From contig NZ_JACHJR010000001.1 in the NCBI RefSeq assembly GCF_014203705.1, positions 6,014,001 through 6,078,000 of the forward strand: a DNA stretch of 64,000 nt. Direction: 5' to 3'. Both the position numbers and the translations under genes were made by a program. Shown here in pieces: positions 5,243-63,810 of the stretch (its first letter is position 1; every line of letters starts with the position of its first letter). Below the pieces are notes generated by a model. It was given only the letters and a program-made list of their open reading frames with translations. It had not been told where the DNA came from and did no database searches. The stretch comes from Kitasatospora gansuensis. Lineage in GTDB: Bacteria > Actinomycetota > Actinomycetes > Streptomycetales > Streptomycetaceae.

Positions 5243-7507
5243 GTGAAGGCAGCAAGCGTGCCGAGCTCCGCTCGGTGGTCCGCACTGGTGCGCCGGGTCC
5301 GTTGGTTGGCACCCACCGTGCTGGCCCTGACCGTGCTCTGCTTCGGCACGGGCGGGCCGGCCGCCGCCGGGAGCGCCGAGTGTGCCGAGGGCGGAGGCGG
5401 GCTGACCGGGCGTCAGAGCCGGGTGACGGAGGTTGACGGGCCGCTGCTGCTCTCGCTGGCGAACGGCAGTGCCGGCCCGCGCTCCGAGCTGTCGGTCGCG
5501 ACCGGGCCGGGTGCCCCCGCCTGGCTGGGGGACCTCCCGGCAGGCCGGGAGGTGACGATCACCAGGGCCACCCCGGCCGGGGACGGCGTGGCGGAGCCCG
5601 AGCTGTTGGTCCGCACCCCCCGCTGTCCCGCTCCCTCGACCGTCCCCTTCGCCGACGACCCCGCCTCCGATGGTGCGCCGCACGCCCGGCTGCAGTCCTG
5701 GGGCCGGACCCCGGCCGCACGGGTGGCTCCGGGTGAGACCTTCCGCTACACCATCACGGTGGTCAACCACGGCCCCTCGGCGGCCCGGGACGTGGTGGTG
5801 ACGGACAACCTCCCCCGCCCACTGCTCTTCGTCTCCTCCGAGGACGGCTGCACGGCCCGAGGGCAGAAGGTCACCTGCGGGCCGAGACCGCTGGTGGTCC
5901 CGGGCACCACCGCCTCCTGGGTGATCCTGGTCCGCCTGGACCCGGCGTACACCGGCACCGGCGACGAGATCGCCAACCAGGGCAGCGTCGCCTCCAGCAC
6001 CCCCGACCCGCGCCCCGTGAACAACACCGGACCCCGCCCCGGCGCCGGGCTCCCCGGCGGATCGGTGACGGGGCCGACGGCGGACCTGGCGATCGCCAAG
6101 AGACCGTCAGGAACCGGTCCCGTCACACCCGGTGAGACCTTCGAGTACCTGCTCACGGTGGTCAACCACGGCCCCTCCGAGGCTGCGGCCGTGACCGTCA
6201 CGGACCAACTGCCGTCCGCCCTCGCCTTCGTGTCCTCCGCCGACGGCTGCACCGGCCCGGCCGACACCTACGGCGCGATGCTGACCTGCCCCGTCCTGGA
6301 CCGCCTCGCACCCGCCGCCACGAAGAGCCGCTCCGTCACCGTGCGGCTCGACCCGGCCTACGACGGCGACGGCTCGGACGTGCTGAACCGGGCCACGGTG
6401 AGCTCGACCACCCCGGACCCGGAGGTGGCGAACAACACCGTCGCGGTGACCGGCCTGCCGAATCCCGACAGCACCCTCCGGCCCGGCCCACCGGCCGCGG
6501 ACCACACCGTCACCGTCGGTCCCGCCCCGGCCGTCCACTCCGGCCGGCAGAGCACCGCCCGGCTCACCGTCAGCAGCCTCGGCCCGTCCACGAGGCGGCA
6601 GCCCGGCGTCGTCACCGTGACGATGCCCGAGCGGACCACCGTGCCGAGCACGGGACTTCCGCCGGGCTGCACGGCGGAGGCGAGCGGCCGTCAGCTGCGC
6701 TGCACCGTCACCCCCGGCCGACGCCGATCCGCCGACATGCCGTTCGCGGTGGACTTCCCGGTCGACGTCGCGCCGTCCGCGCCTCCGAACACCACACTGA
6801 CCGGCGGCACCGCCGTCGTCCAGAGTCCAGAAGACCGCAACTCCGCCAACGACAAGGCGAGTTGGACCGTTGCCACGTTGGGCGGGAGTGCCGACCTGGA
6901 GACCACCAAACGGGCCGTGCTCCCCGCCGGGCGGCAGGCGGTTTCTCCCGGGGACGTCTTCGCCTACCGGATCGCCGTGCGCAACCACGGCCCCTCCGAC
7001 GCACGCGGCCTGACGGTCACGGACCCGCTGCCCGCTCCGCTCACCTTCGTCTCCGCACCGGACGGCTGCGCCGCGACCGGACAGACCGTCAGCTGCCGCT
7101 CCACCGGCCCGCTCCAGGCCGGGGAGACGGCCGTGTTCGACCTCACGGTGCGGCTGGCGGCCGGCTTCCGGGGCAGCGGCTCGGCCGTCGACAACATCGC
7201 CACCGCCACCTCGGACACCCCGGACCCGGACCGCGCCAACAACACCAACCGGGCGGGCACCACCGGCCCCGACGGCGGGCCGCTGCCCGTCACGATCCCG
7301 CCGACTCCCGGCCCGGAATCCACCCCCACTCCGAAGCCCGCTCCCACCCCCACCTTCGGCCCGAAGCCGCTCCCGGACACCGGCAGCCACCTGCCGGCCG
7401 CGCTGCCGGTGACCGCATCGGTCGCGCTCCTCGCCGGAGCGGGCCTGCTGGCACTCTCCCGCCGGTGGCGCCGCCTGGACGGGGCCCGGCGCTGGCCCCG
7501 GTCATGA
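5243..7507 (+). CDS. LPDTG-anchored cell-surface protein with DUF11 repeats
   Basis: This 754-residue surface protein starts at a GTG with GGAG ~7 bases upstream. Layout: a long signal peptide (to about residue 45), an N-terminal segment of unknown fold, then four DUF11-type repeats beginning near residues 161, 295, 423 (divergent) and 569. The repeats share PGETF.Y, NHGPS, FVSS.DGCT and VRLDPAY. A Pro/Thr linker is followed by LPDTG (residue 710), a hydrophobic helix and an Arg-rich tail, which is a complete sortase sorting signal. It should be covalently attached to peptidoglycan. It is the first gene of a three-gene operon; its stop overlaps an ATG (ATGA). Adhesin or surface-layer role is inferred, not shown. 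Confidence 0.85.
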   Translation: MKAASVPSSARWSALVRRVRWLAPTVLALTVLCFGTGGPAAAGSAECAEGGGGLTGRQSRVTEVDGPLLLSLANGSAGPRSELSVATGPGAPAWLGDLPAGREVTITRATPAGDGVAEPELLVRTPRCPAPSTVPFADDPASDGAPHARLQSWGRTPAARVAPGETFRYTITVVNHGPSAARDVVVTDNLPRPLLFVSSEDGCTARGQKVTCGPRPLVVPGTTASWVILVRLDPAYTGTGDEIANQGSVASSTPDPRPVNNTGPRPGAGLPGGSVTGPTADLAIAKRPSGTGPVTPGETFEYLLTVVNHGPSEAAAVTVTDQLPSALAFVSSADGCTGPADTYGAMLTCPVLDRLAPAATKSRSVTVRLDPAYDGDGSDVLNRATVSSTTPDPEVANNTVAVTGLPNPDSTLRPGPPAADHTVTVGPAPAVHSGRQSTARLTVSSLGPSTRRQPGVVTVTMPERTTVPSTGLPPGCTAEASGRQLRCTVTPGRRRSADMPFAVDFPVDVAPSAPPNTTLTGGTAVVQSPEDRNSANDKASWTVATLGGSADLETTKRAVLPAGRQAVSPGDVFAYRIAVRNHGPSDARGLTVTDPLPAPLTFVSAPDGCAATGQTVSCRSTGPLQAGETAVFDLTVRLAAGFRGSGSAVDNIATATSDTPDPDRANNTNRAGTTGPDGGPLPVTIPPTPGPESTPTPKPAPTPTFGPKPLPDTGSHLPAALPVTASVALLAGAGLLALSRRWRRLDGARRWPRS

Positions 7508-7533
7508 CCCGTCCCAACGAAAGGGCAGGATCC

Positions 7534-9651
7534 GTGCAGGCATCCCCGCACCCCCACCGGTGCCGATGGCCACGCCCGCTCCAGGCCTTGGCCGCCGCCG
7601 TCCTCGGCCTCGGCCTGATCGCCGCCGTGGCCGCCGGCACTCCCGGTCACGCCGATCCGCTGGGCCGGACGGCCCACCGCGCCACAGTGACGTTCCCCGT
7701 CCACGAGGCCTTCGACTCCGCCACCAACAGCGGGACCACCTCCGGCACGGTGACCTTCGACAACGGCTGGATGCGCCTCACCAGCGCCAGCGCCAGCCAG
7801 GCCGGCGCCTGGCAGACGAACGACTCCTTCCCGGCCGACCTGGGCATCATCGCCGAGTTCCAGTACGCCAGTTGGGGCGGCAGCACCTGGGACGGCAAGC
7901 GTGGCGACGGCATGGCCTTCTTCCTCGCCGACGGTGCGGCCACCCGTGGCACGGGCGCGCTCGGCGGAGCCCTGGGTTACGCGTGCGCCGGGACGACCAG
8001 CACGTGCAACACCAACGGCCTACCCGGGGCGTTCCTGGGCGTGGGCATCGACGAGTTCGGCAACTTCTCCTCCAACCTCATCGGCAACGGCGGACCGGGC
8101 GCGGCCACGAACAAGATCGTGGTGCGCGGCGGCGGCGACAAGAACACCGGCTACCGCTTCGGCACCAGCGCCAACGGTCCCGGCGGGTCGGTCGAGACCG
8201 GCAGCCGGGCCAAGCTGCGCACCATCCGGATCTCGCTGCTCCCCAAGGACAAGAAGCTGCTGCTGTCGCTCTGGTCCGACAGTGGACCGGGTACCACCCT
8301 GACGCAGCTGATCACCGACTTCGACATCAACACCATCACCGACCAGCCGAAGCTGCCCAGCACCCTGAGGGTGGGATTCTCGGCCAGCACCGGCGGGGCC
8401 ACCAACAACCACGAGATCGCCGACCTCACCATCAACGCACCAGCCAACCTCTCGATCGCCAAGACCGGCACCCCGGCCTCCGCCAAGGCCGGGGCCGACA
8501 GGGTGACCTACACCGTCACCGTCTCCAACGACGCGACCAACGACGTCACCGGTGCCCGCGTCCAGGACACCGTGCCCGGTCTGACCTCGGTCTCCTGGAC
8601 CTGCACCGCCTCCAGCGGCAGCACCTGCGGGCAGGCATCCGGCACCGGCAACACCATCGACACCACCGCCGACCTCAAACGCGGCGGCACCGCCACGTAC
8701 ACCGTGACCGGCACCGCCCCGACCTCGCCGACCACCCTGCGCAACACCGCCACCGTCACGGCGCCCAAGGACCGGACCGACCTCAACCCCGCCGACAACA
8801 CCGCCACCGCCGTCACCGAGATCACGGCCGGCCCGGCCGACATCACCACCGGCAAGGAGGCCCTCGGCAAGGGCCCGGTCATCCCCGGGCAGACCTTCGA
8901 CTACCGGATCACCACCACCAACCTCGGCCCGGCCGACACCACCAGGGCCGTCATGACGGACGTGCTGCCCAGCCCGCTGCTGTACGTCTCCGCCTCCCCG
9001 GGGTGCACCGCCGACGGGCGGAGGATCAGCTGCGGTCCGGTCGCCAACCTGGCGGCGGGGGCGGCGACCTCATGGACCGTCACCGTGCGGCTCGACCCGG
9101 CCTACGCGGGTGACGGCAGCGACGCCCGCAACACCGCGACCTCCGCCTCGGACGCCGTCGACCCGAAGGCCGACAACAACACGAGTGCCGCCACCGGGCC
9201 GCCGGGCGGCGTGGCGGCCGCCCAGGCGGACCTGGCGGCGGCCAAGAGCGCCGTCGGCACCACCCCAGTGGCCCCCGGCGAGACCTTCGACTACCGGGTG
9301 ACGGTCACCAACACCGGCCCTTCCCAGGCAGTCGGCGTCCGGGCGCTCGACCCGCTCCCGGTCACGCTGGCGTTCGTCTCATCCACCGACAAGTGCGGCT
9401 CCACGGGGCAGTCGGTGACCTGCACGAGCACCGACCCGCTCGCCCCCGGCGCCTCCAGGTCCTGGACGTTCACCGTGCGCCTGGACCCCGGCTACAAGGG
9501 CGACGGCACGGACGTCCGCAACACCGCCACGGCCGCCGCGACCACCGCCGACCCGGTGGCCGCGAACAACACCAGCCCGTCCGCCGGGCCGCCCGGCGGG
9601 ACCGTCCGTTCCCCGGAGGCGGACCTGGACTTCGGCAAGACCACTCCCTGA
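7534..9651 (+). CDS. secreted L-type-lectin-like protein with DUF11 repeats
   Basis: This is a 705-residue secreted protein. The GTG at 7534 is preferred because AAAGGGCAGGA precedes it; an ATG at 7504 overlapping the upstream stop is the alternative. After a signal peptide comes a legume-lectin-like beta-sandwich (about residues 50-300) with the GDGMAFFLADG strand, the G.LGGALGY loop and GVGIDEFGNFS, the usual core of bacterial L-type lectin domains. Three DUF11 modules follow, near residues 305, 450 and 580, the last two very close in sequence to modules in the flanking genes. There is no LPxTG motif or C-terminal helix. Likely a carbohydrate-binding surface or matrix protein; the ligand is unknown. 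Confidence 0.8.
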   Translation: MQASPHPHRCRWPRPLQALAAAVLGLGLIAAVAAGTPGHADPLGRTAHRATVTFPVHEAFDSATNSGTTSGTVTFDNGWMRLTSASASQAGAWQTNDSFPADLGIIAEFQYASWGGSTWDGKRGDGMAFFLADGAATRGTGALGGALGYACAGTTSTCNTNGLPGAFLGVGIDEFGNFSSNLIGNGGPGAATNKIVVRGGGDKNTGYRFGTSANGPGGSVETGSRAKLRTIRISLLPKDKKLLLSLWSDSGPGTTLTQLITDFDINTITDQPKLPSTLRVGFSASTGGATNNHEIADLTINAPANLSIAKTGTPASAKAGADRVTYTVTVSNDATNDVTGARVQDTVPGLTSVSWTCTASSGSTCGQASGTGNTIDTTADLKRGGTATYTVTGTAPTSPTTLRNTATVTAPKDRTDLNPADNTATAVTEITAGPADITTGKEALGKGPVIPGQTFDYRITTTNLGPADTTRAVMTDVLPSPLLYVSASPGCTADGRRISCGPVANLAAGAATSWTVTVRLDPAYAGDGSDARNTATSASDAVDPKADNNTSAATGPPGGVAAAQADLAAAKSAVGTTPVAPGETFDYRVTVTNTGPSQAVGVRALDPLPVTLAFVSSTDKCGSTGQSVTCTSTDPLAPGASRSWTFTVRLDPGYKGDGTDVRNTATAAATTADPVAANNTSPSAGPPGGTVRSPEADLDFGKTTP

Positions 9652-9701
9652 CGACCCGTCACCGGCCGTCGGCCGCTGACCCACCCGTGGAACAGGAACC
9701 G

Positions 9702-11765
9702 ATGCACACCACCACACCCACCTCACGCCGACGGTCGACCCGCCGGCTGACGGCCGGCGCGCTCACCGTGCTGCTGGCCCTGGGGCCGGCTGCCGCCGCG
9801 ACCGCAGCACGGCCGGCCGTGGCGCCCGGCGAGACCTTCACCTACACCCTGAGCACCAAGAACAAGGGCCCCTCGGTGGCCAAGAACGTCACCGCCAAGG
9901 ACACCCTGCCGGACGGCATCACCTTCGTCTCCTCCGACGACGGCTGCACGGCGGTGGGGCAGAAGGTCACCTGCGGGCCGGCGGCGGAGCTGGCGGTCGG
10001 CGCCACCAAGAGCTGGAGCATGGTGGTGCGGCTGAGCCCCTCGTACGAGGGCGACGGTTCGGACCTGGGCAACGTCGCCACCACCGCCTCGGACGCCCAC
10101 GACCCGGCCACGGGGAACAACACCAACCCACCGGTGCGGCCCGACGGTCCGTTCGACCGCAAGTCCGACCTCTCCACCACCAAGGCCGGGGTGGGCGCCG
10201 GGCCGGTCGTCCCGGGCACCGAGTTCGAGTACCTGATCACCACCACCAACCACGGGCCCTCGGACGCCCCGAACGCGATGGTCACCGACAAGCTGCCCGC
10301 CGGACTCACCTTCGTCTCCTCCGCGGACGGCTGCACCGCAACCAGCCAGGACGTGACCTGCGGGCCCGTCACGAAGCTGGCCGCCGGCGCCTCCACGGCC
10401 TGGAAGATCAAGGTCCTGCTGGCCGCCTCCTACCGGGGCGACGGCACCGACCTGAAGAACACCGCCACCTCCAAGTCCGACGCGGCGGACCCCGTCCCCG
10501 GGAACAACACCAGCAAGCCCGCCGACCTGCCCGGCGGACTCGGCGGCGCCGAGGCGGACCTCTCGGCCGTCAAGAAGGCCGGCTCCGACACCCCGGTGGC
10601 CCCCGGCGAGACCTTCGACTACCGGATCACGGCCACCAACAAGGGCCCCTCCGACGCCACCGTGGTGACCTCGACCGACAAGCTCCCGGCCATGCTGAGT
10701 TTCGTCTCCTCACCGAACGGGTGCACCGCCAACGGACAGACCGTCAGCTGCGGCCCGCAGCCGACCCTGGTCGCGGGCGACTCGCTGACCTGGACCCTCA
10801 AGGTGCGGATCGACCCCGGCTACAAGGGGGACGGCTCCGACATCCTCAACACCGCCACGGTGGCCTCCGCCACCAAGGACCCCGTCCCGGCCAACAACAC
10901 CAGCAACGCGGCCGGCCCGCCCGGCTCCAAGGTCAACCCCCCGACCGCGGACCTCGGCGTCACCAAGAAGGCGGTCGGCACCTCGGCGCCGACCCCCGGG
11001 GCGACCTTCGACTACCTGATCACCGTCGTCAACAACGGCCCCTCCGCCGACGCGTACGGCGTGACCCTCGCCGACAAGCTCCCCAAGGAGCTGATCTACG
11101 TCTCCTCCACCCCGGCCGGCTGCACCGAGACCGGCACGGTGGTGACCTGCAAGCGGCCCACCCCGCTGAAGGTCGGCGAGAGCGAGCAGTACGTGCTGAC
11201 CGTCAAGCTCGACCCCGCCTACCGGGGCGACGGCAGCGCGATCAAGAACAGCGCCAAGGTCACCGCCGACAACATCGACCCCAAGACCGACAACGACAGC
11301 TCCACCACCGGCCTGCCCGACGGCAAGGCCGGCGACCCCCGGGCGGACGTCTCCACCGCGAAGGAGACCGTCACGACCACGCCGATCGCCCCCGGCGAGA
11401 CGTTCCAGTACGCGGTGACCGCCACCGACAACGGCCCCTCCGACGCCCTCGGCGTGACGATCAGCGACACCCTCCCCGCCCAACTGCTCTTCGTCTCCTC
11501 GGCGGACGGCTGCACCGCCTCCGGACAGGTCGTCAGCTGCGGACCGGCCGCCATCGCCTCCGGCACCTCGCACCGCTGGGTGTTCACCGTCCGACTCGAC
11601 CCGGCCTACAGCGGCAACGGCTCCGACATCCGCAACATCGCCAAGGCCACGGCCACCACCGAGGACCCCGTCCCCGACAACAACACCAGCAACGCGGCCG
11701 GCCCGCCCGGCAACCTCGTCAGGGGCCCGGAAGCCGACCTGGAGATCGACAAGGTGCCCTCCTGA
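9702..11765 (+). CDS. secreted five-repeat DUF11 protein
   Basis: This 687-residue protein consists of an Arg-rich signal peptide (about residues 1-37) followed by five DUF11-type modules beginning near residues 42, 170, 300, 431 and 562, so the period is ~131 residues (~393 bp). Each module carries PG..F.Y, a N.GPS turn, a Cys pair (GCTA..V.C) and a NNTS end. There is no anchor at the C-terminus. ATG at 9702 has AGGAA six bases upstream. It is the last gene of the operon, 50 bp after the lectin-like gene, and is followed by a strong hairpin. Probably a structural or adhesive extracellular protein. Confidence 0.8.
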   Translation: MHTTTPTSRRRSTRRLTAGALTVLLALGPAAAATAARPAVAPGETFTYTLSTKNKGPSVAKNVTAKDTLPDGITFVSSDDGCTAVGQKVTCGPAAELAVGATKSWSMVVRLSPSYEGDGSDLGNVATTASDAHDPATGNNTNPPVRPDGPFDRKSDLSTTKAGVGAGPVVPGTEFEYLITTTNHGPSDAPNAMVTDKLPAGLTFVSSADGCTATSQDVTCGPVTKLAAGASTAWKIKVLLAASYRGDGTDLKNTATSKSDAADPVPGNNTSKPADLPGGLGGAEADLSAVKKAGSDTPVAPGETFDYRITATNKGPSDATVVTSTDKLPAMLSFVSSPNGCTANGQTVSCGPQPTLVAGDSLTWTLKVRIDPGYKGDGSDILNTATVASATKDPVPANNTSNAAGPPGSKVNPPTADLGVTKKAVGTSAPTPGATFDYLITVVNNGPSADAYGVTLADKLPKELIYVSSTPAGCTETGTVVTCKRPTPLKVGESEQYVLTVKLDPAYRGDGSAIKNSAKVTADNIDPKTDNDSSTTGLPDGKAGDPRADVSTAKETVTTTPIAPGETFQYAVTATDNGPSDALGVTISDTLPAQLLFVSSADGCTASGQVVSCGPAAIASGTSHRWVFTVRLDPAYSGNGSDIRNIAKATATTEDPVPDNNTSNAAGPPGNLVRGPEADLEIDKVPS

Positions 11766-17353: not shown

Positions 17354-17453
17354 CAGGGGCTCGGGGAACTGCGACGCCGACCTCGTACAAGGTGATCCGT
17401 ACGTAAATGGTCAGGCACTTTCGCAGTGTTGCCCGCCAGCCACGAACCGTCAC
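17354..17453. repeat. short intergenic repeat family, copy A
   Basis: This copy shares AGGGGCTCGGGGAACTGCGA, AAGGTGATCCGT, CAGGCACTTTCGCAGTG and CCAGCCACGAACCGTC with copy B (24977-25097), and most of these with copy C (50458-50599, inverted). It ends exactly at the stop codon of the PucR-type gene and lacks the matching right-hand inverted arm seen in B and C. Confidence 0.8.
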
Positions 17454-19367
17454 CTACCCCTCGGCGAGAAGTTGCAGCCGCAGCGCCAACTGGAGTTCCA
17501 GCGACCGTTCCGGGTGGTTCCAGTCGTGGCCGAGCAGGATCTCGACCCGGTCGAGGCGCTGGACCACCGTGTTCACGTGGACGTGCAGCTCGTCCTTGGC
17601 CCGGGTCAGGCTGCCGCCGCAGTCGAAGTAGGCGCGCAGGGTGCGGACCAGTTCGGTGCCCCGGCGGGTGTCGTAGTCCAGCAGCGGGCCGAGGGTGGCG
17701 CCGACGAACGCGGCCACGTCGTGGCCGTCGCCGAGCAGCACGCCGAGGAAGCCGAGGTCGGCCGCCGACGCCCCGTCACCTTCGCGGCCGAGCACCCCCA
17801 ACGCCCGTACGCAGCGCAGCCCTTCGGTGTACGCCGCGGCGAGCGCCACCGGCCCGGCGGCGACCCGGCCGGCGCCGACCGTGACCGGGAACCCGGCCAG
17901 CCGGGCCAGCCGGTCGGCGGCCAGTTCGGCCGCGTCGCCCGGGGTGCTGCCGCCGTCCTCGGGCAGCAGCAGGACGACGGCCTCGCCGTGCTCGGCGCTG
18001 ATCCCGCGCGAGCCGAACAGGTAGCGGGAGGCCGCGCCCGCCAGCCGGGCCCGGTCGGCGGCGGGGACCATCGCGACCAGCACCAGGTGCGGGCGGCCCA
18101 GGTCGACGCCGAGCCGGCGGCCCCGGGCGGTCAGCCCGGCCGGGTCGCGGTCGGGGGAGCTGAGCAGGTCGGCCAGCAGCTCGCCGCGGACCCGGTTCTC
18201 GGTCTCGGCGACCGAGCGGCGGAGCAGCAGCAGGAGCGCGGTGACCACCCCGGCGCGCTCGAACAGGCGGCGGTCGGCGTCGTCCAGGTCGGGCCGGTCG
18301 TGCAGCACGATGCTGCCCAGCGGTTCCTGGCCGGCCAGCACCGCGCAGACCCAGCTGTCGCCGGCCCGGACGGCGCGGCCCTCGGCGCGCGAGGCCGCGA
18401 CCGCGTCCGACAGTCCGTCAGCTCCCGGCGTGCGCCCGGCCAGTGCGAGCCCCTCGGCGTCGCGTACGCCCACCTCGCCGCCGAGCAGCGCGGCCACCGC
18501 GGCCGCCACGTCGGGGACTTCGGCACCGCGCAGCACCAGGTCGGTGAGCCGGTCGTGGGCCCGCTCGGCGCGCTGGACGGCGGCGGAGTGGGCCTGGATC
18601 ACCGCGTTCGCGGTGTTCAGCTCGGCGAGTGCGGCCCGGGTGTCGGCCAGCGCCTTGGCGGTGTCCAGCGCGATCGCGGCGTGCGCGGCCAGCGTGCAGA
18701 GCAGCGCGACCTCGTCGGGGGAGAACGCCCGGGGCGAGCGGTCGGCGGCGAACAGCACGCCGATCACCTGGCCGCCGAGCAGCAGCGGGACGCCGATGAT
18801 CGCCACCAGGCCCTCGTCCAGCACCCCGGCGTCGATCTTGCCGGTGTGGTGGAACCGCTCGTCGGTGCGGTAGTCCGGCGTCGCGTACGGCCGGGCGGTC
18901 TGCGCCACCAGGCCGCCGAGACCGTCGCCGAGGCTGAGCCGCAGGGTCTGGAACAGCACCGAGACCGAGCCGTCGGTGACTCGCATGTAGGTGTCCCCGG
19001 CGGCCTGGTCCGGCAGGGTCAGGTACGCGGTGTCGGTGCCGAGCAGCATCCGGGCCCGGCGGACGATCGCCTGCAGCACCGCGTCCAGGTCGCGGGAGGC
19101 GGCCAGGTCACCCGCGGTGTCGAAGAGCGCGGTCAGCTCGGCCTCCCGGCGCCGGTGCTGACGCATCGTCCGGTGCACCCGCAGGGCCAGCCAGGTGGCG
19201 TCGTCGATCTCGGCCAGCACGGCCGCGGGCGCGCCCTGGCGCCGGGCCTCGGCGAGCACCTCCGCGAAGTCCTCGGTGGCGGCGCCGGAGGCGAGCAGGT
19301 CGAGCAGCCGCCGTAGGGCGGGGGCGGCGCTGGAGTGGGGGTGCGGGTCGTCCATGGTGCGGGCCAT
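17454..19367 (-). CDS. GAF-domain PucR/CdaR-type transcriptional regulator
   Basis: This regulator of ~637 residues has an N-terminal helical region, a GAF sensor domain (about residues 85-225; ends VIGVLFAADRSPRAFSPDEV), a connecting coiled segment, a GGDEF-like CdaR middle domain, and a C-terminal PucR HTH (RAYFDCGGSLTRAKDELHVH then NTVVQRLDRVEILLG). It probably senses a small molecule and activates or represses the adjacent transporter/dehydrogenase pair, an inference from position. The start is ATG at 19367 or 19355; neither has a strong RBS. A hairpin separates it from the upstream pair, so it is probably its own transcript. Confidence 0.8.
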   Translation of the reverse strand: MARTMDDPHPHSSAAPALRRLLDLLASGAATEDFAEVLAEARRQGAPAAVLAEIDDATWLALRVHRTMRQHRRREAELTALFDTAGDLAASRDLDAVLQAIVRRARMLLGTDTAYLTLPDQAAGDTYMRVTDGSVSVLFQTLRLSLGDGLGGLVAQTARPYATPDYRTDERFHHTGKIDAGVLDEGLVAIIGVPLLLGGQVIGVLFAADRSPRAFSPDEVALLCTLAAHAAIALDTAKALADTRAALAELNTANAVIQAHSAAVQRAERAHDRLTDLVLRGAEVPDVAAAVAALLGGEVGVRDAEGLALAGRTPGADGLSDAVAASRAEGRAVRAGDSWVCAVLAGQEPLGSIVLHDRPDLDDADRRLFERAGVVTALLLLLRRSVAETENRVRGELLADLLSSPDRDPAGLTARGRRLGVDLGRPHLVLVAMVPAADRARLAGAASRYLFGSRGISAEHGEAVVLLLPEDGGSTPGDAAELAADRLARLAGFPVTVGAGRVAAGPVALAAAYTEGLRCVRALGVLGREGDGASAADLGFLGVLLGDGHDVAAFVGATLGPLLDYDTRRGTELVRTLRAYFDCGGSLTRAKDELHVHVNTVVQRLDRVEILLGHDWNHPERSLELQLALRLQLLAEG

Positions 19368-24976: not shown

Positions 24977-25097
24977 GTCAGGGGCTCGGGGAACTGCGAC
25001 GCCAGCCTCGAAAAAGGTGATCCGTCCGTAAATGGTCAGGCACTTTCGCAGTGATACCCACCAGCCACGAACCGTCGCCGTTCCCCGAGCCCCTGAC
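24977..25097. repeat. short intergenic repeat family, copy B, with terminal inverted repeats
   Basis: This 121-bp element is bounded by 24-bp inverted repeats (24977-25000 and 25074-25097; 23 of 24 bases match; outer part GTCAGGGGCTCGGGGAAC). The interior shares AAGGTGATCCGT, CGTAAATGGTCAGGCACTTT and CCAGCCACGAACCGTC with copy A. It lies between two minus-strand genes. Confidence 0.85.
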
Positions 25098-30535: not shown

Positions 30536-32284
30536 TTACAGGCCGAGCTCGACCTCGAACTCGCCGGCCTCGAGGATCTCCTTGACCGCGACCAGGAAGC
30601 GGGCGGCGTCGGCGCCGTCCACCAGGCGGTGGTCGTAGGAGAGCGAGAGGTAGGTCATGTCACGGACGCCGATGACGGTGCTGCCGTCGACCTCGATGAC
30701 GACCGGGCGCTTGACGGTGGCGCCGATGCCGAGGATCGCGGCCTGGTTCGGCGGCACGATCACGGTGTCGAACAGCGCACCGCGCGAGCCGGTGTTGCTG
30801 ATGGTGAAGGTCGCGCCGGACAGCTCGTCCGGGCTGATCTTGTTGCCGCGGACCTTGCCGGCCAGCTCGGCGGTCTTCTTCGAGATACCGGCGATGTTGA
30901 GGTCGCCCGCACCCTTGATGACCGGGGTCATCAGACCCTTCTCCGAGTCCACCGCGATACCGATGTTCTCGGAGTCGAAGTAGGTGATGGTGCCCTCGTC
31001 GCCGTTGATCCGGGCGTTGATCACCGGGTGGCTCTTCAGCGCCTGGGCGGCGGCCTTGACGAAGAACGGCATCGGGGACAGCTTCACGCCCTCACGGGCG
31101 AGGAAGGAGTCCTTGGCCTTGCCGCGCAGCTTCATGATCTTGGTGATGTCCACCTCGACCACGCTGGTCAGCTGCGCCTGCTCGTGCAGGGCCTTCATCA
31201 TGTTGTCGCCGATGACCTTGCGCATCCGGGTCATCTTGACGGTCTGACCGCGCAGCGGGGACGCCGCGGCGGCGGCCTTCGGCGCGGCGGCCGGGGCGGC
31301 CACCGGAGCCGGGACGGCCTTCGCGGCCTCGGCGGCGGCGATGACGTCCTGCTTGCGGATGCGCCCGCCGACACCGGTGCCGGTGACCGCGGAGAGCGCG
31401 ATGCCCTGCTCGGCCGCGAGCTTGCGGACCAGCGGGGTGACGTAGGCGTCCGAGCCGTCGGCGGCCGGAGCCACCGGGGCGGCGGCGACCGGAGCCGGCG
31501 CGGCCACGGGGGCCGGGGCCGGAGCAGCGACCGGAGCGGGAGCGGCGACCGGGGCAGCGGCCACGGGGGCCGGCGCGGCCACGGGGGCCGGGGCCGGGGC
31601 GGCGACCGGAGCCGGAGCCTCGACAACCGGGGCAGGAGCCGGGGCGGCGGCGGCCGGAGCCGCACCCGCCGCACCGATCAGCGCGAGCTGGGCGCCGACC
31701 AGGGCGGTCTCGTCCTCGCCGACCAGGATCTTCACCAGCACACCGGCGACCGGCGACGGGATCTCGGTGTCGACCTTGTCCGTGGAGACCTCGAGCAGCG
31801 GCTCGTCGACCTCGACGGTGTCGCCCTCGGCCTTGAGCCAGCGGGTGATGGTGCCCTCGGCGACCGACTCGCCCAGAGCGGGGAGCAGCACCGGGGTGGC
31901 GTCGGCGGCGGGCGCGGCAGCGGCCGGGGCGGCAGCCGGAGCCTCGGCCACGGGGGCCGGAGCGGCGACGGGCGCCTCGACGACCGGGGCGGGGGCGGCC
32001 GGAGCAGCCTCCGCGACCGGGGCCGCGGCGGCGACCGGCGCACCGGAGCCGTCGTCGATGATGGCCAGCTCGGCGCCGACCTCGACCGTCTCGTCCTCGC
32101 CGACCTTGATCGAGGCCAGGATGCCGGAGGCGGGCGCCGGGATCTCGGTGTCGACCTTGTCGGTCGAGACCTCGAGCAGCGGCTCGTCGACCTCGACGCG
32201 GTCACCCTCGGCCTTCAGCCAACGGGTGACGGTGCCTTCGGAAACGCTCTCGCCCAGCGCGGGCAGTGTTACTGAGACCGCCAT
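30536..32284 (-). CDS. sucB: 2-oxoglutarate dehydrogenase E2, dihydrolipoamide succinyltransferase
   Basis: This E2 core subunit of the 2-oxo acid dehydrogenase complexes is 582 residues. Layout: two lipoyl domains, each with the lipoylated Lys in [10 protein letters not shown]; Ala/Pro/Val-rich flexible linkers; the E3-binding domain ([14 protein letters not shown] then [14 protein letters not shown]); and the catalytic domain with [15 protein letters not shown] (DHRxxDG). Its lipoyl lysines are the substrates of LipB and LipA encoded at 15-17 kb. It is directly downstream of lpdA (63 bp), so the E2-E3 pair is co-transcribed. It could also serve pyruvate dehydrogenase, as single E2 proteins do in actinobacteria. 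Confidence 0.93.
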
Positions 32285-32347: not shown

Positions 32348-33736
32348 TCAGTCGTGCGCGTGCAGAGCCTTGCCGGCCAGCGCCAGGTGCGCCTCGCCGA
32401 GCGCCTCGGACTGCGACGGGTGCGCGTGGATGAGCTGCGCGACCTCGGCGGGCAGCGCCTCCCAGTTGTAGATCAGCTGGGCTTCGCCGACCTGCTCACC
32501 CATGCGGGCGCCGACCATGTGGACACCCACCACGGCGCCGTCCTTGACCTGGACGAGCTTGATCTCGCCGGCGGTCTTGAGGATCTTGCTCTTGCCGTTG
32601 CCGGCCAGGTTGTACTTGAGCGTGACGACCTTGTCCTTGCCGTACAGCTCGACGGCCTTGGCCTCGGTGATGCCGACGGAGGCCACCTCCGGGTTGCAGT
32701 AGGTCACCCGCGGCACGCCGTCGTAGTCGATCGGCACGGCCTTGAGGCCGGCCAGCCGCTCGGCGACCAGGATGCCCTCGGCGAAGCCGACGTGGGCCAG
32801 CTGCAGGGTCGGGACCAGGTCACCGACGGCCGAGATGGTCGGCACGTTGGTGCGCATGTACTCGTCGACCAGGACGTAGCCGCGGTCCATCGCGACCCCG
32901 GCCTCCTCGTAGCCGAGACCGGCCGAGACCGGGCCGCGGCCGATGGCGACCAGCAGCAGGTCGGCGTCGATCTGCTTGCCGTTCTCGGTGGAGACCCGGA
33001 CGCCGTCGGCGGTGTACTCGACACCGGAGAAGCGGGCCTTCAGCTCGAACTTGATGCCACGCTTGCGGAAGGCGCGCTCCAGCAGCTTGGAGGAGTTCTC
33101 GTCCTCCAGCGGGGCCAGGTGCGGCAGGGCCTCGACGATGGTGACGTCGACGCCGAAGGACTTCCAGACCGAGGCGAACTCGACACCGATCACGCCGCCG
33201 CCGAGGATGACGGCCGACTTCGGGATGCGGTCGAGCTTGAGCGCGTGGTCCGAGGAGATCACGCGGTCGCCGTCGATGTTCAGGCCGGGGATCGACTTCG
33301 GCACCGAGCCGGTCGCGAGGACGATGTGACGCCCCTCGACCCGCTGGCCGTTGACGTCCACCGAGGTCTGCGAGGAGAGCAGGCCCTCGCCCTGGATGAA
33401 GGTGACCTTGCGGGAGGCCACCAGGCCCTGCAGGCCCTTGTACAGGCCGGCGATCACGTCGTCCTTGTACTTGTGGACGCCGTTGATGTCGATGCCCTGG
33501 AACGTGGCCAGGACGCCGAACTCGGCGGCTTCCTTGGTCTCGTCGGCGATCTCGGCCGCGTGCAGCAGGGCCTTGGTCGGGATGCAGCCGCGGTGCAGGC
33601 AGGTGCCGCCCAGCTCACCCTTCTCGATCAGCGCAACGCTCAGACCCAGCTGCGCTGCACGGAGCGCCGCGGCGTAACCGCCGCTTCCGCCTCCGAGAAT
33701 GACTACGTCGAAAACGGTGCTGGCGTCGTTCGCCAC
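32348..33736 (-). CDS. lpdA: dihydrolipoamide dehydrogenase (E3)
   Basis: This flavoprotein reoxidises dihydrolipoamide with NAD. The 462-residue product has FAD loop VVILGGGSGGYAAALRAAQL, redox-active disulfide C46/C51 in GGTCLHRGCIPTK, the NAD site AVILGGGVIGVEFASVW, the second FAD site ISAVGDLVPTLQLAHVGFAE, and the dimer-interface active-site His-Glu pair in HAHPSQSEALGEAH. The GTG at 33736 has GGAGG seven bases upstream and gives the standard N-terminus. It is the first gene of the lpdA-sucB operon. Confidence 0.96.
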   Translation of the reverse strand: MANDASTVFDVVILGGGSGGYAAALRAAQLGLSVALIEKGELGGTCLHRGCIPTKALLHAAEIADETKEAAEFGVLATFQGIDINGVHKYKDDVIAGLYKGLQGLVASRKVTFIQGEGLLSSQTSVDVNGQRVEGRHIVLATGSVPKSIPGLNIDGDRVISSDHALKLDRIPKSAVILGGGVIGVEFASVWKSFGVDVTIVEALPHLAPLEDENSSKLLERAFRKRGIKFELKARFSGVEYTADGVRVSTENGKQIDADLLLVAIGRGPVSAGLGYEEAGVAMDRGYVLVDEYMRTNVPTISAVGDLVPTLQLAHVGFAEGILVAERLAGLKAVPIDYDGVPRVTYCNPEVASVGITEAKAVELYGKDKVVTLKYNLAGNGKSKILKTAGEIKLVQVKDGAVVGVHMVGARMGEQVGEAQLIYNWEALPAEVAQLIHAHPSQSEALGEAHLALAGKALHAHD

Positions 33737-34084
33737 GTCACGTCCTCCATGCAAAGGGGTGCGGTTCGCCGGGCCGGTCGCGGTCCGGTGGGGCAGGGCG
33801 CCCTCGTAAGGCGCCCAGTCGTCCGGGAGTACATCCTCGCACTTGTTCGCGGCGGCTGGTGGCCGGGGCTGCCCCGGACAGCTCGGCCGGTTGCCAGGAG
33901 GGCTCTCGGATGTCCCGTACGTCAGGGTATATCCGCAGCTCACAGCCGTGTGACCACGCGGGAGAGGGTGGGCCGGCCGGGCCGGTGGGGTGGGCTGTTC
34001 CACCGTACGGAACAAAGTTTCGCCCGCGGCGAACACGCGTTGTCAGAAACGGTCGGATCCACTACCGGCCGGTAACCGAAAAAA
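33737..34084. other. promoter region of lpdA-sucB
   Basis: This ~350-base gap holds no convincing gene. The lpdA promoter should lie here; I see no clear operator or riboswitch. Confidence 0.4.
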
Positions 34085-35855: not shown

Positions 35856-36614
35856 TCAGGAGAGGGCGAGCGCGAGCAGCGCCCCGGTCGCGGCCGTCTC
35901 CGCCGTCGCCCCCAGGACGTCGCCGGTGATCCCGCCGAACCGCCGGACGCAGCGGCGCAGCAGCAGCCACCCGCAGCCGAGCCCGACGGCCAGGGCGAGC
36001 GGGTGCCACGGCGAGATCCAGCCCAGCCCGAACGCCATCAGCGCCGAGACCCCCAGCGCGGCGGGCCAGCGCACCGTGGCGGCGACCATCGCGCCGAGCC
36101 CGCCCGGCCGGGCGGCCGGGACGGAGCGCAGGCAGCCCCAGGTCAGTGCGCACCGGGCGGCCAGCGCGGCGGTCAGTACGGCGAAGGCGCCGCGCCAGAG
36201 CGAGACCGCGAACTCCCCGGCCAGTGCGGCGATCTGAGCCAGCAGCACCAGCAGCAGCGTCAGTACGCCGAACGGGCCGATGTCCGACTGCTTCATGATC
36301 CGCAGCGCGTCCTCGGCCGGTTTCCCGCTGCCGAGCCCGTCCGCGACGTCCGCCAGGCCGTCCAGGTGCAGCCCGCGGGTCAGCCCGGCCAGGACGGCCA
36401 CCGCCGCCACCGCCCCGAGCAGCGGCCCACCGCGCCAGGCGAGCAGCGCACCCGCGCCGGCCGCGACCGCCCCGAGCACCAGCCCGACCACCGGGGCGGC
36501 CAGCATCGCCCGCCCACCGGTCTCCCGGTCCCAGCGGTCGACCCGGACCCGCAGCACCGAGAGCGTGCCGAAGGCGAACCGCAGCCCGTCCAGCAAATCA
36601 GCCCCTCCGGCCAT
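35856..36614 (-). CDS. cobS: cobalamin synthase (adenosylcobinamide-GDP ribazoletransferase)
   Basis: This integral membrane enzyme joins adenosylcobinamide-GDP and alpha-ribazole at the end of B12 synthesis. The 252-residue product is highly hydrophobic and carries the family motif GLHLDGLADVADGLGSGKP followed by ALRIMKQSDIGPFG. The ATG at 36614 begins the typical N-terminus (MAGGADLLDGLRFAFGTLSV). This start codon and the first codons lie inside the left arm of a 161-bp inverted-repeat element; the open frame continues upstream through the element but reads as Arg-rich nonsense. It is downstream of cobT. Confidence 0.92.
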   Translation of the reverse strand: MAGGADLLDGLRFAFGTLSVLRVRVDRWDRETGGRAMLAAPVVGLVLGAVAAGAGALLAWRGGPLLGAVAAVAVLAGLTRGLHLDGLADVADGLGSGKPAEDALRIMKQSDIGPFGVLTLLLVLLAQIAALAGEFAVSLWRGAFAVLTAALAARCALTWGCLRSVPAARPGGLGAMVAATVRWPAALGVSALMAFGLGWISPWHPLALAVGLGCGWLLLRRCVRRFGGITGDVLGATAETAATGALLALALS

Positions 36615-36760
36615 TGGTGGGCGGCGTCGCGTCGCCGGGGCACGCACCTCGCCGGCTTCTCGTCGGTCGCCGATGCTCCGCATGGACTTCCTCCTCGGCG
36701 CCGCCGAGGCACGCACCCCAACGCCGCTCCTTCATCCGCCCACCAATGGCCGGAGGGGCT
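36600..36760. repeat. 161-bp inverted-repeat-bounded element, copy 1
   Basis: Perfect 25-bp terminal inverted repeats (36600-36624 and 36736-36760; outer part AGCCCCTCCGGCCATTGG) enclose a ~110-bp core. The core is nearly identical to that of copy 2 (38748-38909), including CGGCTTCTCGTCGGTCGCCG and GCCGAGGCACGCACCCCAAC. The element fills exactly the space between the cobT stop (36760-36762) and the cobS start (36612-36614 is inside the left arm). Confidence 0.9.
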
Positions 36761-37884
36761 CAGCCCCGGTTGAGCAGTTCGGCGGCGGTCGGCAGCCGGG
36801 GCGGCTCGACCGGGCCGCGCTCGGCCACGGTCATCGCCGGTACGTCCGAGGGCTCGGCCAGGGTGTCGGCGGCGGCCTGCAGCAGCGGCAGCGCGAGCAG
36901 GGCGCCGACGCCCTCGCCCATCGAGATGGCCAGGCCCTGAACGGGCGTCAGGGTCAGCCGGTCGTACGCCTTCGCCTGGGCGGGTTCGCCGGTGGACTGC
37001 CCGGCCCGCCACCACTCGGGGGCCCGGAAGGCGATCCGCTGGGCGACCAGCGCGCAGGCGGCCGAGACCACGCCGTCCAGCACCACCGGCAGCTTGCGGG
37101 CGGCGGACTGGAGCAGGAAGCCGGTGATGGCGGCGAAGTCCGCGCCGCCGACGGCGGCGAGCAGCGCGAGCTGGTCGCCGAGCACCGGGCGGGCCCGGCG
37201 CAGCGAGTCACGGACGGCCGCGCACTTGACCATCCAGGTGCGGTCGTCGATGCCCGAACCCCGGCCGGTGACGGCCGCGGCGTCGGTCCCGCAGAGCGCG
37301 CCGACCAGGACGGCGGCCACGGTAGTGGAGCCGACCCCGAGGTCGCCCAGCACCACCAGGTCGGTCCCGGCGTCGGCCTCCTCGTCGGCCACCGCCATCC
37401 CGGCCCGGAACGCCTTGATCGCCTCGGCCTCGGTGAGCGCGTCCGCCAGGTCGATCCGGCCGGAGCCGCGGCGCACCCGGAAGCGGCTGACCTCGGCCGG
37501 GAACTCGTGGGGGTCGGCGTCCACCCCGACGTCCACCACCCGCAGCCCGGCGCCGTACCGGCGGGCCAGCACGGCCACCGGGGCGGTGCCGTCCAGCACC
37601 GCGTGCACCCGGCGGGCGGTGCCGCCCTGGGCGGGCAGCTCGGAGACGCCGACCGCGGCGATCCCGTGGTCCGCCGCGAACAGCACCACCTTGGCGGCGG
37701 TCAGCGGCCGGACCGGCGAGCTGCCCTGCACCGAGGCGAGCCAGCTGCCCAGTTCCTCCAGCTGCCCGAGGCCGCCGCGCGGCTTGTCGAGCTGCTGCCA
37801 GCGCTCCTCGCCGGCCCGGCGAGCGCTCTCGTCAGGGCGCTCCACGAGCGAGGAGAAAGTGTCGAGATCCACGGTGGTGTCCAT
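36760..37884 (-). CDS. cobT: nicotinate-nucleotide--dimethylbenzimidazole phosphoribosyltransferase
   Basis: CobT makes alpha-ribazole phosphate for the lower B12 ligand. The 374-residue product has DKPRGGLGQLEELG at the N-terminus, FAADHGIAAVGVSELP, LGDLGVGSTTVAAVLVGAL, and the C-terminal GLAISMGEGVGALLALPLLQ with the catalytic Glu. The ATG at 37884 gives the usual start. It follows cobU with a short gap and is separated from cobS by the repeat element, so read-through into cobS must cross the hairpin. Confidence 0.94.
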   Translation of the reverse strand: MDTTVDLDTFSSLVERPDESARRAGEERWQQLDKPRGGLGQLEELGSWLASVQGSSPVRPLTAAKVVLFAADHGIAAVGVSELPAQGGTARRVHAVLDGTAPVAVLARRYGAGLRVVDVGVDADPHEFPAEVSRFRVRRGSGRIDLADALTEAEAIKAFRAGMAVADEEADAGTDLVVLGDLGVGSTTVAAVLVGALCGTDAAAVTGRGSGIDDRTWMVKCAAVRDSLRRARPVLGDQLALLAAVGGADFAAITGFLLQSAARKLPVVLDGVVSAACALVAQRIAFRAPEWWRAGQSTGEPAQAKAYDRLTLTPVQGLAISMGEGVGALLALPLLQAAADTLAEPSDVPAMTVAERGPVEPPRLPTAAELLNRG

Positions 37885-37895
37885 CGTCTGGAAGG

Positions 37896-38456
37896 CTACA
37901 CGCCAGTGGGTTTGACGGTCAGCACCTGCCCCGCGACCACCAGCAGGACCTGCTCGGAGGCGTCCGCGACCGCCATGTTCAGCCGCCCCAGGGTGTCCCG
38001 GAACCGCCGTCCGGCGGCGGTGGCCGGGACCACGCCCATCCCCACCTCGTTGCTCACCGCGATCACCTGACGGCCGGTCACCCGCCAGGCCGCCGCCAGC
38101 GCGTCGCAGCGCTGCTGCACCGCCGTCTCCGCGCCCTCGTACCAGGCGGAGTCGTCCCAGGCCCCGCACTCGTCCAGCACGGCGGTCAGCCAGAGCGCCA
38201 GGCAGTCGATCAGCACCGGCGCCGGGTCGGTCCGGTCCGCCAGCACCGCCTCCAGGTCGCAGGTCTCCGCGGTGCGCCAGGTCACCGGCCGCCGCTCCCG
38301 GTGCAGTTCGACCCGCCGGGCCCAGTCCTGGTCGCCGTCCCGGGTGCCGCTGGTGGCCACGTACAGGACGTCCTCGTACGGGACGAGCAGCTGCTCGGCC
38401 CGGGTGGACTTGCCCGAGCGGGCGCCGCCGAGGATCAGGGTGCGGGGGAGTGCCAT
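37896..38456 (-). CDS. cobU: adenosylcobinamide kinase / cobinamide-phosphate guanylyltransferase
   Basis: This bifunctional B12 enzyme phosphorylates and then guanylylates adenosylcobinamide. The 186-residue product has the P-loop GGARSGKST (residues 10-18), the guanylylated-His region ELHRERRPVTWRTAE, VLIDCLALWLTAVL, and VSNEVGMGVVPATAAGR. The second ATG (38456) is chosen because GGGGGAGG is at a proper distance from it. It is first in cobU-cobT-(element)-cobS. Confidence 0.94.
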   Translation of the reverse strand: MALPRTLILGGARSGKSTRAEQLLVPYEDVLYVATSGTRDGDQDWARRVELHRERRPVTWRTAETCDLEAVLADRTDPAPVLIDCLALWLTAVLDECGAWDDSAWYEGAETAVQQRCDALAAAWRVTGRQVIAVSNEVGMGVVPATAAGRRFRDTLGRLNMAVADASEQVLLVVAGQVLTVKPTGV

Positions 38457-38543
38457 GCCGCCCATCCTCCCCCACGAGGCATGGGGCGCTCCGGGGCGGG
38501 CACGCTAACCTGCGCAGCAGAACCGAGAAGCGAGGAGCCGGGC

Positions 38544-38744
38544 ATGGTCTGGACGTGGCGGTACGAGAAGGCGGACGGCACCCTCGTCCAGCAGCCGGGC
38601 GAGCAGGAGGAGTTCCCCGGGCAGGGGGACGCCGAGTCCTGGATCGGCGAGGAGTGGAAGGACCTGCTGGCCAAGGGCATCGAGCAGGTCGTCCTGCTGG
38701 ACGACGGCAAGGTGATCTACACGATGAGCCTGCAGGAGGGCTGA
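38544..38744 (+). CDS. small conserved actinobacterial protein
   Basis: This 66-residue acidic protein (MVWTWRYEKADGTLVQQPGE) has AGGAG ~7 bases upstream of the ATG. The sequence alternates short beta strands and one helix and has no membrane segment or cysteine. It looks conserved because of its codon pattern and strong RBS, but I do not recognise a function. It is divergent from cobU and followed at once by copy 2 of the 161-bp element. Confidence 0.7.
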   Translation: MVWTWRYEKADGTLVQQPGEQEEFPGQGDAESWIGEEWKDLLAKGIEQVVLLDDGKVIYTMSLQEG

Positions 38745-38747
38745 GCT

Positions 38748-38909
38748 GGGCCCTCCGGGGGTTGGGGGGCGGCGTCGCGACGCTGGGGCACGCACCTCAC
38801 CGGCTTCTCGTCGGTCGCCGATGCGCTGTATCAGGCTCCCTCCTCGGCACCGCCGAGGCACGCACCCCAACGCCGCTCCTTCTTCCACCCCCCAACCCCC
38901 GGAGGGCCC
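38748..38909. repeat. 162-bp inverted-repeat-bounded element, copy 2
   Basis: Terminal inverted repeats of 25 bp (38748-38772 and 38885-38909; 24 of 25 match; outer part GGGCCCTCCGGGGGTTGG) enclose a core almost identical to copy 1. The arm sequence differs from copy 1 at several positions, yet both arms changed together and still pair. It lies between convergent genes. Confidence 0.9.
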
Positions 38910-63692: not shown

Positions 63693-63810
63693 GGTCATGA
63701 GTGACAGCGACAAGCCCCAGCTTGCTGTCCGGCAACCCTCCGTCCGTGGCGGGGTGCCCTGGGTGAGGACCGGGCTCCGCGGCGAACCGTCCGCGTGGCA
63801 AGCGCGGACG
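63693..63810 (+). promoter_or_regulatory. SAM-IV riboswitch
   Basis: The sequence follows the actinobacterial SAM-IV pattern I know: opens GGTCATGAGTGACAGC, then CAAGCCCCAGCTTGCTGTCC, GGCAACCCTCC, GGCGGGGTGCCCTGGGTGA with GACC closing the first stem, and a downstream GGCAAGCGCGGA element. It lies between promoter and start codon of a class V aminotransferase gene, where this riboswitch class is known to occur. It should turn expression off when S-adenosylmethionine is high. Confidence 0.85.

Follow-up and report, generated by a model that had tools for sequence, protein, structure and literature searches.

Inverted repeats beside cobS belong to a gene-less palindromic element family with a conserved hairpin core and a replication-linked orientation

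Two palindromic repeats and their relatives

A 64,000-nucleotide stretch of the Kitasatospora gansuensis genome (the window) carries two inverted-repeat elements, one of which occupies the whole gap between cobT and cobS. Are such repeats folded RNAs that serve the neighboring genes, or copies of a mobile palindromic unit? The initial annotation considered both, and suggested that the first copy might control cobS. Its description of the repeats holds, with a refinement of one boundary. The arms of copy 1 (36600-36624 and 36736-36760) are complementary at 25/25 positions, those of copy 2 (38748-38772 and 38885-38909) at 24/25, and the two cores share 88-89% identity. The true extent of copy 1 is 36601-36759, with an outer arm at 36601-36624 and a partner arm at 36736-36759, the 25th base pair of the arm as first drawn being an A-T pair contributed by the duplicated target. 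The outer arm holds an ATG in frame with cobS (minus strand, 36614-36612), as had been noted. The folding sense of copy 1, whose ends belong to class A, is the minus strand, the same as that of the cobU-cobT-cobS genes, and fold z-scores are -5.9 for the minus strand and -1.0 for the plus strand. Its conserved core spans 36624-36727 (minus strand; covariance model R1, 110.7 bits, G000:C1:6050624-6050727), and the best-conserved part of that core, three tandem G·A motifs and a GC-GGA-GC apical hairpin, lies at 36656-36696 (minus strand; alignment A1 and its pair table). Copy 2 (38748-38909, minus strand) is placed between two convergent genes, with its core at 38772-38876 (minus strand; R1, 101.1 bits, G000:C1:6052772-6052876).

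DNA and covariance searches recovered 27 copies in the window's own genome (G000), per-genome counts being lower bounds as the large searches scored only part of the candidates; thus the similarity of the two window repeats is far above chance. A copy is about 160 bp long and reaches about 200 bp where an additional hairpin has been inserted. At the genus level, the element was found in 49 of 70 genomes by DNA search. With the covariance model, 172 of 298 Streptomycetaceae genomes gave matches, as did, across the class, 74 of 395 sampled genomes representing 22 of 138 genera; named records with matches are mainly Streptomyces and Kitasatospora. Copies also occur on Streptomyces plasmids. Phage records and viral contigs contained no match, and a phage origin was therefore dropped. 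A group of 98-nt, short-armed Streptomyces sequences resembled an ancestral single-copy RNA gene; these sequences, too, have outer ends and are additional copies of the element. The initial annotation knew of no RNA class that fits, and Rfam agrees: no model matched the element at the gathering threshold, nor did a permissive search with copy 1 return any. In the open-access papers covered by our literature search, no earlier description of the family was found.

Insertion sites and the exchange of ends

Both window insertions are missing from all 18 related genomes in which cobS-cobT and the downstream region are present. In one relative (G038, locus L269), the empty cobT/cobS junction reads ...CACG-TCA-GCC..., with a single TCA, whereas in the window TCA flanks copy 1 as a direct repeat (36598-36600 and 36760-36762), which indicates a 3-bp target duplication. 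On the minus strand the right-hand TCA reads TGA, the stop codon of cobT, thus cobT was left intact by the insertion and the in-frame cobS ATG came to lie in the arm. Copy 2 has no clear duplication. Among the wider set of elements, TNA flanks are identical in 21 of the 26 copies that have TNA on both sides, and a second set of ends sits in CTAG targets; comparison of related plasmids gave a core-deleted class B copy, a ragged alignment and no clean class B empty site. The mobile palindromic unit proposed earlier is thus borne out by the target duplication and by the empty sites in relatives. Target duplications with clonal arms had been named as the mark of a simple mobile element rather than of structure under selection; the duplications are there, but the arms are not clonal. 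Lacking coding sequence, present in many copies, bounded by terminal inverted repeats and associated with empty sites and with target-site duplication, 3 bp long where it is best resolved, the two window repeats are copies of a gene-less, non-autonomous palindromic mobile element family of the MITE-like type.

TNA and CTAG are the target types of IS5-superfamily elements. Together with ends that start GA... or GG..., they fit the rules generally known for IS5-superfamily derivatives. Elements with IS5-type (DUF4096) transposases in the same genomes have ends of similar style (CTAG-GGCGTGTCTGA...; NTA-GAGCTCGTAACA...), which are not identical to those of our family. A search with class A arms in two genomes (G000 and G034) returned only element copies and solitary ends, and beside the plasmid matches inspected for one class B end there was no transposase, apart from one lying more than 2 kb off. 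An autonomous element with identical ends and a transposase was therefore found in neither G000, G034 nor the inspected plasmid matches, and so we infer a helper. Class A arms lacking a partner occur at G000:C1:1297103, 1201389, 4617640, 1543867 and 3395195, and in locus L029 an arm ends abruptly at GGCGGCGTC beside a gene; these are possible half-elements.

The shared core with compensated arms, described earlier from two copies, proves to be a property of the whole family, in which the arms co-vary within copies. The two arms of one copy differ by a mean of 1.1 mismatches in 22 positions, whereas class A arms of different copies in the same genome differ by 7.8. At the same time, copies with unrelated arms can have 78-nt cores only 0-1 differences apart. 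The cores of L025 and L027 are alike at 78/78 positions, and those of L011, with TNA-type ends, and L016, with CTAG-type ends, at 77/78. Such near-identical cores under unrelated arms show that cores and ends have been recombined, or that cores have been converted, while the arms within each copy remained matched.

About seven copies of the window's genome with different arms (L010, L012, L014, L024-L027) have an extra hairpin (GCGCCCTCCTTGCCCGGCATCGGGCAGGAG..) inserted at a common position in the core, and the Streptomyces copies L118, L130, L155, L181 and L196 contain other small G/C-rich palindromes within the core. These extra structures have the look of nested palindromic insertions. At about 1480-1703 of its locus, the copy L015 (G000:C1:1188194-1188292), with arms of a third kind (GGGGGGCCGCGCGGGTCAGGCTGG), directly adjoins a cobalamin riboswitch. 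The riboswitch match begins at model position 45 of 189, with GGCATAA just before the element, and L015 may have inserted within the cobalamin aptamer.

Structure and constraint of the core

The conserved core of about 100 nt forms a hairpin on one strand only. In an alignment of 47 cores, the 37-pair hairpin has 95.2% of its cells paired, and 15 pairs are changed on both sides. For instance, pair 32-71 is C-G in 34 cores and G-C in 13, pair 35-68 is G-C in 37 and C-G in 9, and pair 10-93 occurs as four pair types. The check proposed in the initial annotation, a covariance-model search with a covariation test, recovered the family, and none of 500 shuffles reached the observed value on any of five measures. 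In slid controls the paired cells drop to 27-50%, a comparison in which the structure has an advantage because it was derived from the same sequences; the compensatory changes are independent of that. The core thus has the covarying secondary structure expected of a structured RNA. Its best-conserved part consists of three 2x2 loops with GA on both strands, set between isolated pairs, above which stands the GC-GGA-GC apical hairpin. Other families of the class have the G·A motifs as well, with a different apical loop.

At the paired positions of the core, G·T fills 324 cells and A·C 13, and the mismatches of the arms also show an excess of G·T (179 vs. 46, or 106 vs. 40 with each repeated context entered a single time). 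In 154 of 155 elements the folding strand is the more stable of the two under RNA and DNA parameters alike, with a median advantage of 9.8 kcal/mol under DNA parameters. The G·T excess and the consistent stability of one strand show that the folding strand is under constraint, acting either as RNA or as single-stranded DNA.

Orientation relative to replication and its explanation

Since the core is asymmetric, its direction can be compared with that of replication, for which dnaA was used as the origin marker. The folding sense points toward dnaA in 189 of 252 copies from 21 genomes (P about 8e-16), a pooled figure that would be too high if some insertions are common to several species. The majority points toward the origin in 16 of the 21 genomes and three are ties, so concordance varies by genome. 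In the window's genome 24 of 27 copies agree, in G018 23 of 25, and two genomes are significant singly (5e-5 and 2e-5). The bias is seen at every distance from dnaA. Outside Streptomycetaceae, 20 of 30 copies in six genomes point toward the origin (P = 0.10, with the terminus taken as opposite the origin). With the folding sense directed toward oriC, the strand that folds serves as the leading-strand template. Gene orientation was rejected as the cause: tandem gene contexts of the window's genome comprise 8 sense and 8 antisense copies, yet 24 of its 27 copies agree with replication. With orientation to genes so mixed, cis-regulation fails to explain the replication bias. Replication-linked orientation is itself known for Tn7, IS200/IS605 and several IS families (PMC5371812). 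For the coupling of this polarity to a conserved hairpin in an element without genes, no report was found in the open-access literature searched.

We consider it probable that these repeats are a gene-less palindromic transposable family with a folded core pointing to oriC, mobilized in trans and carrying the core as a cis-acting module. IS5-superfamily-type DDE transposases would move the element in trans by reading its ends, while the folded strand, either single-stranded DNA at the fork or RNA, would be a module of the element itself that aids mobility or survival at replication forks. As to how the core would bias orientation, it might steer insertion into replicating DNA with one polarity, or insertions of the other polarity, which place a strong hairpin in the lagging-strand template, might be short-lived. 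The matching of arms within copies could arise by template switching across the palindrome or by selection for pairing. A bolder form of this proposal, which we put forward tentatively and regard as rather doubtful, is a replication-coupled mobile element governed by folding, in which a portable, strand-specific core with its tandem G·A helix would be recognized at the fork by a host or transposon factor, and the ends would be interchangeable, their mutual match counting for more than any fixed sequence. If true, this would be a modular type between DDE MITEs and single-stranded DNA transposons.

The repeats could also be ordinary IS5-superfamily MITEs, with the core as an ancestral relic, ends that are ordinary terminal repeats of several resident transposases, and a bias reflecting the known polarity of transposases that contact the sliding clamp. 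The target types and the style of the ends agree with this, as does the replication-linked orientation already known for other elements (PMC5371812). A passive relic, however, should not retain covariation, a preference for G·T over A·C and invariant tandem G·A motifs across the class and under unrelated ends. Moreover, no polarity is evident among the IS5-type transposase genes of G000 and G018 (a small sample, judged by eye), and the genomes and plasmid matches inspected yielded no element with the same ends. We think this explanation possible but somewhat improbable.

Alternatively, insertion might be random, and copies with the more stable hairpin in the lagging-strand template might be deleted or selected against, through palindrome slippage or cleavage. 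In E. coli, hairpins are more prone to deletion if they are in the lagging-strand template, and here it is the more stable strand that is kept off that template. However, groups of near-identical copies (identical scores, presumably recent) point toward dnaA in 36 of 45 cases (P = 7e-5), as biased as the whole set. Type-3 cores, whose predicted DNA stability difference is only about 5 kcal/mol, occur in the strongly biased G018. Loss as the source of the bias therefore seems unlikely. Since the bias of recent copies equals that of the others, we favor polarity at insertion over later loss, although fast loss might also account for it.

A host-serving RNA, i.e., a cis-regulatory or mRNA-stabilizing hairpin such as has been proposed for ERIC and NEMIS and here for cobS, could draw on the strong sense-strand RNA hairpin, on copy 1 lying in sense between cobT and cobS with an in-frame ATG in its arm and on the copy that adjoins a cobalamin riboswitch, but is very improbable given that the site is not conserved in 18 relatives, that tandem contexts in the larger set are more often antisense than sense (52 vs. 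33, crude gene finder) and that insertions adjoin stop codons of diverse genes. Control of cobS, as suggested in the initial annotation, was accordingly rejected as a general role, and we saw no support for a selected one: the insertion is confined to one lineage, and the copies show no preference for the sense direction of genes, their orientation tracking replication. Copy 1 may nevertheless alter cobS translation by accident, the start region now lying in a strong stem.

Bacterial MITEs are usually regarded as what decay has left of single insertion sequences. A core that persists across a class under changing ends is a candidate for a functional module within a mobile element. ERIC/IRU, NEMIS/Correia, RUP and YPAL/RU-2 (PMC2229807, PMC10969869) are likewise gene-less, intergenic and about 100-200 bp long, with palindromic ends, target duplication and a long RNA hairpin, but do not have one covarying tandem-G·A core under unrelated ends across a class, or replication-linked orientation. 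IS5-superfamily IS and MITEs share targets and end style with our family, and similar-ended DUF4096 transposases are in the same genomes; our family differs in having no transposase gene, no identical-ended IS that could be found and many arm sequences per genome. IS200/IS605 and REP/REPIN, mobilized as single-stranded DNA by HUH transposases, also have strand-specific hairpins and replication-correlated orientation (PMC5371812). IS200/IS605-type elements, however, have neither terminal inverted repeats nor target duplication, in contrast to the long matched arms and duplications here; REP/REPIN are built of 20-40 bp units with a conserved tetranucleotide tag, whereas ours is a single unit of about 160 bp in which no tag was seen. 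Furthermore, the folding strand here is the leading-strand template, the opposite of the lagging-template rule given for IS608. In Tn7 (TnsE) and clamp-targeted IS, replication direction sets insertion polarity as well, but the asymmetry of our element lies in a hairpin core rather than in a transposase-coding body with different ends. The orientation bias links the element to DNA replication, and insertion polarity is open to direct test. The elements are scattered through the genomes of antibiotic producers, in which strong hairpins beside stop codons could influence both operon expression and assembly.

The window has several other features. A SAM-IV riboswitch lies at 63693-63810 (plus strand; Rfam RF00634, 101 bits). 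Repeat units of about 390 bp at 5758-11753, several copies of which are 61-76% alike, probably belong to a repetitive multidomain gene. Two 211-bp copies at 31675-32266, 82% alike and beside a dihydrolipoamide dehydrogenase-like gene (32348-34036), are likely duplicated lipoyl domains. Finally, a 101-bp direct repeat (17354-17454 and 24979-25079) shows 91% identity between copies 7.6 kb apart.
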